Below, one piece after another: positions 1,478 to 23,634 of a stretch of DNA of 34,701 bases (position 1 is the first letter of the stretch; every line of letters begins with the position of its first letter). The translations under genes and the position numbers were made by a program. The notes under the pieces are model-generated. The model saw nothing but the letters and a program-made list of their open reading frames with translations. It was not told the origin of the DNA and did not search any database. Origin of the DNA: Candidatus Kapaibacterium sp. (GTDB taxonomy: Bacteria; Bacteroidota; Ignavibacteria; Kapaibacteriales; WFXC01); the NCBI GenBank assembly GCA_015490805.1, contig WFXC01000015.1, positions 1 through 34,701 on the forward strand, read 5' to 3'.

Positions 1478-1552
1478 GGGCAGATAGCTCAGTTGGTCCA
1501 GAGCGCCTGCCTTACAAGCAGGAGGGCGGGAGTTCGAATCTCCCTCTGCCCA
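1478..1552 (+). tRNA. tRNA-Val (anticodon UAC)
   Basis: A cloverleaf can be folded by eye. The 7-bp acceptor stem is GGGCAGA (1478-1484) with TCTGCCC (1545-1551), discriminator A1552. The anticodon stem CCTGC/GCAGG encloses loop CTTACAA, giving anticodon TAC. The T arm is GGGAG-TTCGAATC-TCCC. No CCA is encoded. It lies 38 nt after the E2 stop and 7 nt before tRNA-Leu, so the two tRNAs are probably co-transcribed. Confidence 0.96.
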
Positions 1553-1559
1553 CTCCAAT

Positions 1560-1643
1560 GCGGAAGTGGCGGAATTGGTAGACGCGCTGGACTCAAAATC
1601 CAGTGGGGTCACACCCGTGAGGGTTCGAGTCCCTCCTTCCGCA
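1560..1643 (+). tRNA. tRNA-Leu (anticodon CAA)
   Basis: Class II tRNA with a long variable arm. Acceptor stem GCGGAAG (1560-1566) pairs with CTTCCGC (1636-1642), discriminator A1643. The anticodon stem CTGGA/TCCAG encloses loop CTCAAAA, anticodon CAA (reads UUG). The T arm contains GGTTCGAGTCC. CCA is not encoded. Confidence 0.96.
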
Positions 1644-1842
1644 CACCCTCCATTCGGTTCTTCCTTTCTCCGTGGTGCATTCTTCAAACGCTGAATGCTG
1701 CTCGTCGACACCGGCTTTTGTTGCAGCATACGGGGAACACCAGCTTTCACCAGCGAGCGAAAGATGGTAAAGAAAGCTGCTGATCTGCTCTGAATAACCC
1801 AGCAGGTTGTCCTGCCAGGGGCGATCTATGCTGTGGCGAACC
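1644..1842. other. Intergenic, no gene recognised
   Basis: First part of the 528-nt gap between tRNA-Leu and gatA. Reading frames here run through the tRNAs or the hairpin repeats and show no protein-like composition. No terminator with a clear T-run was found after the tRNA pair. Confidence 0.5.
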
Positions 1843-2032
1843 GGGAGCGCCGACTTCAGTCGGCAAGGAAGGTGCACCCTAAGGGGTGCGTTCCCAGTAA
1901 ATGCACACTGAAGTGTGCGCTCCCAGTGATCGGGATTACCAACCGGAAGTACCACACGGGGAGCGCCGGCTTCAGCCGGCATCATTGCACACTAAAGTAT
2001 GCGCTCCCGGTAGATGCACGCTGAAGCGTGCA
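1843..2032. repeat. REP/BIME-like cluster of six small hairpins with a GGGAGCGC head
   Basis: Six hairpins occur in 190 nt. Type A (plus orientation): GCCGAC-TTCA-GTCGGC (1849-1864) and GCCGGC-TTCA-GCCGGC (1965-1980), each preceded by GGGAGC. Type B (the same design inverted, loop TGAA/TAAA, followed by GCGCTCCC or similar): 1903-1918, 1987-2002 and 2015-2032. A further hairpin, GCACCC-TAAG-GGGTGC, lies at 1874-1889. Stem sequences differ between copies but pairing is kept, while loop and head are conserved. A GGAG-type head 5' of a short palindrome, in facing pairs, is the REP/BIME design mobilised by RAYT (TnpA-REP) proteins. No RAYT gene is in the window. A second locus is at 23371-23450. 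Confidence 0.85.
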
Positions 2033-2136
2033 CTTCTTGCGGGCTAAAAGTGTCGACGGTCGCGGGCTCATAGGAACGCAGCACCGTCCGCTGTTCCTTG
2101 CTCGAACGTTCGTAGCAGCAATCGCCCCGTTTGCTG

Positions 2137-2171: not shown

Positions 2172-3590
2172 ATGCGGACGTATGAGACATTCCGGAAAGA
2201 GCGGGAAGCAGGAAGGCGTCGATGCGTTGAGGAGCTGGAGCACTTTCTGCAGCGGATTCAGGACCAAGAGCATTTGAATGCATTCATTACCGTTGTGGAT
2301 CCTGAACGGCTTCGGCAGCAGGCAGAGCAGGCAGATGAGCAGTTTGAGCGTGGGACTGCCCGTCCCCTGGAAGGATTGATTGTGGCAGTAAAGGACAATA
2401 TTTCCACGCAGGGAATTCGTACCACGTGTGCGTCGAAGATTCTGGAAAATTTTGTGCCGGTGTATGATGCAACGGCGGTGCAGCGGCTGAAAGCGGCGGG
2501 AGCGATTATCATTGGCAAAACGAATCTGGACGAGTTCGCAATGGGCTCTTCCAATGAAAATTCTGCCTTTGGTGCGGTTCGTAATCCACACAATGAGGCA
2601 TACGTTCCCGGTGGGTCTTCCGGTGGATCTGCTGTCGCTGTTGCTGCTGAAATGTGCCACGTTGCGTTGGGATCGGATACTGGAGGCTCTGTGCGGCAGC
2701 CGGCTGCTTTCTGTGGGGTCATTGGGTTGAAGCCGACGTATGGGCGGATTTCTCGCTTCGGACTGGTTGCTTTTGCCTCCTCACTGGATCAGATCGGGAT
2801 TCTGGCAGCTTCGCTGAATGATACGGCGGCGGTACTGGATGTGATCAGTGGCTACGATCCACGCGACAGTACCTCGGCGCCACTGGAGCCGACCGCAACA
2901 TTCCCGGTTGAGCCCCGGATGCCAGCGCGGGTTGCTGTGCTGGATGATCAGGCACTCGCAGAGTGTGACGAGCGGGTCCGACAACGGTACGCAGCCATTG
3001 TTGAGCAGTTGCAACGATCGGGTGTTCAATGTACCCCGGTTGCGTTCCCTGCCAGTGACGCATTGGTGGCTACCTACTACATCATTGCGACGGCAGAAGC
3101 TTCTTCCAATCTTGCCCGCTATGATGGGATTCGCTATGGATTGCGTGCAGAGGGCGAAGACATCATTACGGCAACCCGATCGGCTGGCTTCGGGATGGAA
3201 GTGAAGCGGCGGATTATGCTGGGAACCTATGTGCTATCTTCTGGATACTACGACGCGTACTACCGCAAGGCGCTGAAAGCACGCCGATTTTTTGCGGAAT
3301 GGTACGAGAAAATCTTCGCTGACAACGATCTTTTCCTGCTGCCTACCTCTCCTGTTCCTCCATTCCGGCTGGGAGAACGGCTGCAGGATCCGATCGCAAT
3401 GTATTTAGCCGATTTGTTTACGATTTCTGCGAATTTAGCAGCTATTCCCGCAATCAATTTGCCAGCCGGCACAACAACTGAGCATCTGCCGATAGGAATC
3501 CAGGTGCAGGTGCCAAAGTTTCAGGAAAAAGCGTTGTTCCAATACGCCCGGTGGCTGCTCCAGCAGTTCGCTGACATCAACCCTGCGTAG
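2172..3590 (+). CDS. gatA: Aspartyl/glutamyl-tRNA amidotransferase subunit A
   Basis: GatA is the glutaminase subunit of GatCAB. It releases ammonia from Gln to convert Glu-tRNA(Gln) or Asp-tRNA(Asn) to the amidated form. The 472-residue protein is a full-length amidase-signature enzyme. The Ser-cisSer-Lys triad is visible: K74 (VAVKDN), S149 (GGSSGGS) and S173 (DTGGSVRQPA). Spacings of 75 and 24 residues equal those of characterised GatA. ATG 2172 is chosen because GAGGAG (2157-2162) lies 9 nt upstream and the family N-terminus begins near here. An in-frame upstream extension runs into the REP-like hairpins and looks non-coding. gatB and gatC are not adjacent, so the subunits are dispersed in this genome. 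Confidence 0.95.
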   Translation: MRTYETFRKEREAGRRRCVEELEHFLQRIQDQEHLNAFITVVDPERLRQQAEQADEQFERGTARPLEGLIVAVKDNISTQGIRTTCASKILENFVPVYDATAVQRLKAAGAIIIGKTNLDEFAMGSSNENSAFGAVRNPHNEAYVPGGSSGGSAVAVAAEMCHVALGSDTGGSVRQPAAFCGVIGLKPTYGRISRFGLVAFASSLDQIGILAASLNDTAAVLDVISGYDPRDSTSAPLEPTATFPVEPRMPARVAVLDDQALAECDERVRQRYAAIVEQLQRSGVQCTPVAFPASDALVATYYIIATAEASSNLARYDGIRYGLRAEGEDIITATRSAGFGMEVKRRIMLGTYVLSSGYYDAYYRKALKARRFFAEWYEKIFADNDLFLLPTSPVPPFRLGERLQDPIAMYLADLFTISANLAAIPAINLPAGTTTEHLPIGIQVQVPKFQEKALFQYARWLLQQFADINPA

Positions 3591-23343: not shown

Positions 23344-23370
23344 GTGGAAAATCCGGTCAGGAGCTGTGCC

Positions 23371-23450
23371 GGAGCGCCAACTTTCGCCGGCACGTACTGG
23401 GAGCGCCGACTTTAGTCGGCAAAGAGGATGCACACGGAAGCGTGCACTCC
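23371..23450. repeat. Second REP/BIME-like locus
   Basis: It has the same design as 1843-2032. GGGAGC precedes GCCGAC-TTTA-GTCGGC (23405-23420), and an inverted partner, GCACAC-GGAA-GCGTGC (23430-23445, one A-C mismatch), is followed by ACTCC. A decayed copy (GGAGCGCC, stem imperfect) lies at 23371-23392. Confidence 0.8.
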
Positions 23451-23634
23451 TAGGAGATACGCGCCTGAGAGCAAGCGTTTCCAGTAGATACTAAAAAGAT
23501 GAAGTGCGGAAATCTCGCTTTGTTTCTGGGGCAAGAGTAATTAAATCTCGCTGAAAGAGTTGCGGGTTCGTCGCAACAACCCCTGTAAGAAAGCGTCAAT
23601 GAAAGCCGATTGTGGTAGGTAAACGGAGCACAAA

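Follow-up and report, generated by a model that had tools for sequence, protein, structure and literature searches.

By anatomy and behaviour, the hairpins described here are a REP/REPIN/BIME-like family of Candidatus Kapaibacterium, and their unit is an asymmetric doublet in which two dimorphic hairpins of 23 nt each form an imperfect inverted pair, i.e. a REPIN/BIME. An earlier note had proposed a REP/BIME-like nature, and the high copy number, intergenic position, dimorphic inverted doublets, mosaic tandem arrays, copy turnover and paired stems support it well. We consider it probable, at roughly 70%, that this is a REP/REPIN (BIME-type) family whose arrays expanded in place and whose doublet was spread as single-stranded DNA by a RAYT that either acts in trans or is now lost or unassembled.

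The window, the whole stretch of 34,701 nt that was analysed, is contig C13 of a 2.67-Mb draft genome (G000) and carries two arrays, one of six hairpins between tRNA-Leu (1560-1644) and gatA, and one of three hairpins flanked by rsmH and an MlaE-like permease gene (Table 1). An Rfam scan of the window returned the two tRNAs and nothing else. Read head-first, the six hairpins aligned without gaps and shared the form GGGAGCGCMNRC-TTYA-GYNKGCA with a 6-bp stem, the head being GGGAGCGC in four of them, GGGAACGC in one and AGAAGTGC in one. All 36 stem cells were paired while three of the six base pairs differed on both sides, and the covariation score of 0.633 was reached by none of 500 shuffles (slid controls ≤0.067), so that the compensatory stem changes claimed earlier for this six-hairpin family are real. 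Folding as single-stranded DNA recovered the drawn stem in five of the six hairpins, one with a slightly extended stem; the weak one was the GCATAC/GTGTGC hairpin, which has a T-G pair. A loose pattern that did not require pairing matched 9 times in the real window vs. 17 times in total over 60 simulated windows. The suggestion that the hairpins face each other in pairs applied to the tails-facing doublets 1843/1873 and 1959/1986, but not to the hairpins at 1902 and 2015, which are extra tandem copies of the GCAC class.

Table 1. Coordinates of the hairpins, arrays and neighbouring genes in the window, and of the RAYT-type genes of the genus.
Feature	Position	Strand	Sequence or evidence
Hairpin 1, GCCG class, left half of first doublet	1843..1865	+	GGGAGCGCCGACTTCAGTCGGCA, exact consensus
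Hairpin 2, GCAC class, right half of first doublet	1873..1895	-	GGGAACGCACCCCTTAGGGTGCA, 4 substitutions, stem paired
Hairpin 3, GCAC class, tandem copy	1902..1924	-	GGGAGCGCACACTTCAGTGTGCA
Hairpin 4, GCCG class, left half of second doublet	1959..1981	+	GGGAGCGCCGGCTTCAGCCGGCA
Hairpin 5, GCAC class, right half of second doublet	1986..2008	-	GGGAGCGCATACTTTAGTGTGCA
Hairpin 6, GCAC class, tandem copy, decayed head	2015..2037	-	AGAAGTGCACGCTTCAGCGTGCA, 3 substitutions
Whole array of six hairpins	1843..2037	.	alignments and flank matches vs. G001/G002
Second array, three hairpins (GCCG +, GCCG +, GCAC -)	23370..23451	.	
tRNA-Val and tRNA-Leu, upstream of six-hairpin array	1478..1644	+	ARAGORN, Rfam
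gatA, downstream of six-hairpin array	2172..3590	+	TIGR00132 4.6e-173
RAYT-type genes beside restriction-modification-like genes	L011:1117-1755, L052:1072-1908, L053:5729-6400, L054:2009-2653, L055:6392-6979		

The family was then counted in G000 and in two further genomes of the same genus, G001 and G002. A relaxed exact pattern matched 262 times in G000, against the more than 100 copies per genome that mark a short REP/BIME palindrome, and 200 times in G001, and a tighter pattern matched 228, 175 and 86 times in G000, G001 and G002, respectively; the reversed-pattern controls gave 0 matches, as did a reversed 1.16-Mb sample of G000. The genome-wide search proposed in the earlier note, with a covariance model of the six window hairpins, returned 163, 159 and 145 matches in the three genus genomes and none in 18 other members of the order, with at most 150 candidate stretches scored per genome. 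The note would have been refuted by a family confined to the two window loci in a genome with no RAYT gene; hundreds of copies and two RAYT-type genes were found instead. Among 58 genomes of the same order and 393 drawn from the phylum (overlapping sets), no genome beyond these matched the hairpin pattern; the plasmids searched gave no match and IMG/VR one contig. When the composite doublet pattern was run against one genome for each of 84,980 species, a search in which records of the window's own genome were possibly omitted, only two Candidatus Kapaibacterium MAGs matched; variants too diverged for the exact and composite patterns would escape them. In these sequence searches the GGGAG hairpin family turned up in a single Candidatus Kapaibacterium genus only, and its sequence appears to be new as far as they show, the kind of element being already known. 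The arrays were unevenly spread in G000, where C4:1282-113808 and C12:938-105984, each more than 100 kb, were hairpin-free beside stretches with an array every few kb.

The organisation of the arrays was determined in the 1.16-Mb sample of G000, which comprised mostly larger contigs and of which 86% was called coding by a simple in-house dicodon gene caller. The sample held 252 hairpins in 54 arrays of 1-11 hairpins each, and the intergenic bias that the note had asked about was nearly complete, 251 of the 252 lying outside called genes as expected of extragenic REP/BIME elements. Clusters of alternating orientation, another REP/BIME trait, were the rule, with at least two hairpins in 49 of the 54 arrays. 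Of the 97 convergent gene pairs 17 had an array between them, as did 6 of the 95 divergent and 26 of the 622 codirectional ones. Hairpins close to each other were most commonly arranged as a tails-facing doublet, of which there were 65 with a spacer no longer than 14 nt. Its layout is ACTGGGAGCGCCGRCTTYAGYCGGCA (GCCG class, left), a spacer that usually measures 4-7 nt and is often rich in A, and TGCACRCTGAAGYGTGCGCTCCCAGT (GCAC class, right). Within an array the GCCG class lay on one strand and the GCAC class on the other, with 0 violations among 216 in the G000 sample and 0 among 48 in G002, as the two oppositely oriented stem classes of the note had foretold; the chance of no class mixing would be ~2^-71 if doublets had landed independently in either orientation. 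The outer flanks of doublets were mostly ACT, and their outer ends mostly CY followed directly by GGGAGCGC: at the outward-facing array ends, C stood at -2 in 55 of 74 heads and Y at -1 in 70, CT preceded 30 of the 74 outer heads (p about 1e-17), A at -3 was weakly kept, and no conservation was seen further out. Positions 1-6 of the hairpin read GGGAGC, with GGAG as the tetranucleotide nearest to the GT[AG]G or CGTC foot of REPs, neither of which is present. In codirectional arrays, the GCCG strand was the coding strand in 21 of 26 (p 0.0025). Array polarity followed gene strand and GC skew alike in the sample (15 of 15 codirectional arrays where both agree), and the effects of replication and transcription on it were inseparable in the sampled arrays. 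The intergenic islands of the GGGAG hairpins also contained GTAG REPs (GTAGGGGCGACC..GGTCGCCCCTAC), which are a second family, as well as a CCCTCTCC..GGGTGAGGG repeat, and were thereby mosaics (L112:1239-1350; G000 C44:36369-36838; other arrays); many of the GTAG REPs lay within or beside GGGAG arrays.

Comparison of orthologous sites indicated how the arrays differ between species. At the window locus, the six hairpins of G000 corresponded to one doublet in G002, its right half degenerate, and to six rearranged hairpins in G001 together with an apparent GTAG REP and a CCCTCTCC-type repeat; at C44:88894, eleven hairpins in G000 corresponded to one doublet in G002, which aligned with the last doublet of that array. 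For ten G000 arrays both flanks were located in the G002 sample; at seven of these sites each species had hairpins, mostly in differing numbers, and at the other three only G000 had them, while in the reverse comparison seven of eight G002 arrays had an occupied site in G000. No clean empty site was recovered among the one-sided sites examined and no doublet insertion was seen directly. The inverted doublet may be the propagated unit, given the predominance of doublets and the lone doublets at the two orthologous sites in G002. A lone doublet vs. 6 or 11 hairpins at these sites suggests that arrays grow in place, and growth around a founding doublet fits the orthologous-site data; alternatively, the arrays may have contracted in G002. 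Expansion of a founding doublet by tandem duplication would also account for the fixed strand of each class in any one array.

RAYT-type genes were present in all three genomes. PF01797 at its default threshold found nothing in G000, whereas a looser search gave one RAYT-type gene and a protein search a second. These encode HUH-Y proteins at C44:112420-113055 (NCBIfam REP_Tyr_transpos 3.5e-15, below the curated cut-off) and C38:1168-1707, and G002 likewise had two; HUH, WQ and Tyr motifs were present in all four. The catalytic Tyr, whose loss was at first suspected in some RAYTs, is kept in both G000 and both G002 proteins, as Y115 of E. coli RayT aligns with the Y of RQYILENP. The sole RAYT found in G001, where the hairpin family is nonetheless abundant, had no conserved C-terminal Tyr region. 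A PDB sequence search with a RAYT-type protein gave no match. The motifs NHIH, WQ and YI-x-ENP of the RAYT-type proteins resemble the published ones of RAYT subclass 2.4, in which GTAG-type palindromes lie inside the reading frame (PMC6006769); such in-frame palindromes were clear in G000 C44 and G002 C109 and decayed in C38 and G002 C23. Across the order, RAYT-type genes carried in-frame GTAG...CTAC-type palindromes ~245-350 nt in, with stems differing between genomes (L056:12751-12782; L053:6091-6118; several of L033-L050). The five RAYT-type genes of the genus all had neighbours that, judged from their translations, are restriction-modification-like (hsdS-, hsdM-, hsdR- or PglX-like), and most touched or overlapped a neighbouring gene by a few bases. 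The specific link to a RAYT that the note had raised was not supported: a search for a TnpA-REP gene flanked by the same hairpin in inverted orientation, as in a REPtron, found none among the five RAYT-type genes of the three draft genomes, and the REP that most of these RAYTs carry is of the different, GTAG kind. The GGGAG copies nearest to the G000 RAYTs were 1.7 and 3.4 kb away, distances that are unremarkable because 19% of G000 genes lie within 1.7 kb of a hairpin. The genes between close arrays, viewed as REPtron candidates, were apparently ordinary host genes as judged from sequence in the sampled arrays.

We propose that the doublet spreads as single-stranded DNA and that a Y1 HUH TnpA-REP (RAYT) recognises it as hairpins and would cut it at the CY that precedes GGGAG. 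This enzyme would be a resident subclass-2.4-like RAYT acting in trans, or one since lost or unassembled. The TnpA-REP of E. coli cuts next to the REP at CT (PMC8266576), and the CY before the outer heads is compatible with such cleavage. The CY boundary and the resident RAYTs support mobilisation by a RAYT, which we nevertheless only infer since the hairpin family has neither the GT[AG]G foot of RAYT-associated REPs nor, among the RAYT-type genes found, the flanking RAYT that goes with them. It is unlikely, though conceivable, that one RAYT with its own GTAG-kind REP mobilises the GGGAG-foot family in trans and so acts on both of the REP families that make up these mosaic islands. A competing reading, with a chance somewhat short of even, is an orphan repeat family whose spreading transposase is gone and whose copy number changes only by slippage and recombination inside arrays. 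The absence of a flanking RAYT among the genes found, the 200 exact copies in G001 despite its only RAYT lacking the Tyr region, and the occupation of most orthologous sites in both species, which differ mainly in copy number, all speak for it; yet a few sites, none of them a clean empty site, are occupied in one species only, and a cognate RAYT may be unassembled in the incomplete drafts.

The paired stems also bear on whether the hairpins act in RNA, as transcript-end or mRNA-stability structures under transcript-level selection. REPs of E. coli can stabilise mRNA, and this analogy, the enrichment of arrays between convergent genes and the preference of the GCCG strand for the coding strand of codirectional arrays would favour such a role. 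However, the stem mismatches showed no G-U excess: A-C mismatches (49) were as frequent as G-T (53), which fits strand-symmetric change at the DNA level and leaves selection on an RNA structure unsupported, the earlier note having named selection on structure as one possibility. Moreover, the T-rich stretch after the GCAC hairpin lies on the GCAC strand, the non-coding strand in most codirectional arrays, the number of hairpins per site is not conserved, and gene strand is inseparable from GC skew in array polarity, so that we regard a role in RNA as quite improbable. In 203 hairpins with at most two substitutions, the covarying pairs 9-20, 10-19 and 11-18 were paired in 191, 193 and 177, respectively, vs. 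shuffle maxima of 124, 120 and 147. Under mobilisation by a RAYT, the stems would stay complementary because well-paired copies propagate and array units are copied from each other, with no selection on an RNA fold. It is highly improbable that a DDE transposase moves the doublet as a MITE-like element bounded by ACTGGGAGCGC as terminal inverted repeats, for although the doublet ends are near-perfect inverted repeats, no target-site duplication was evident at six doublets read by eye without a clean empty site, no transposases appeared, as judged from sequence, among the host-like genes between close arrays of the sample, and an element defined by its terminal repeats has no need of the covariation seen in the internal stems.

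These results add a genus-specific REPIN-like family in a little-studied lineage and provide sister-species sites at which a lone doublet can be compared with an expanded array. For REP specialists, to whom the kind of element itself is not new, they pose the question of whether subclass 2.4 RAYTs act on hairpins without a GTAG foot or whether abundant REP families outlive their transposase.

Compared with known systems, the family shares with the REP/BIME of E. coli (y and z units, RAYT/TnpA-REP) dimorphic hairpins as inverted pairs and tandem mosaics between genes, but has the tag GGGAG instead of GTAG, a 6-bp stem without a bulge and no flanking RAYT found. With the REPINs of Pseudomonas fluorescens SBW25 (PMC3116915) it shares the inverted doublet unit, ordered tandem clusters and high copy number, whereas sequence and tag are different, most arrays have 3-11 hairpins and not a lone doublet, and no cognate RAYT was found. 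The REP Mb of Marinomonas (PMC8266576) likewise has a short perfect stem, a TTTA-type loop, a tag slightly off the stem and CT cleavage sites, which are predicted in Kapaibacterium, but it has a GTAG tag and a linked transposase. CGTC-tagged REPs, also reported from Chlorobi and Bacteroidetes (PMC3733652), are similarly abundant palindromes without a dedicated transposase, but their stems are 8-9 bp vs. 6 bp, and by position profile the Kapaibacterium hairpins have no CGTC tag. The GTAG REPs with RAYT subclass 2.4 (PMC6006769) are unrelated in sequence and lie inside RAYT genes, where the GGGAG hairpin does not, and they share both genome and intergenic islands with the GGGAG hairpins.
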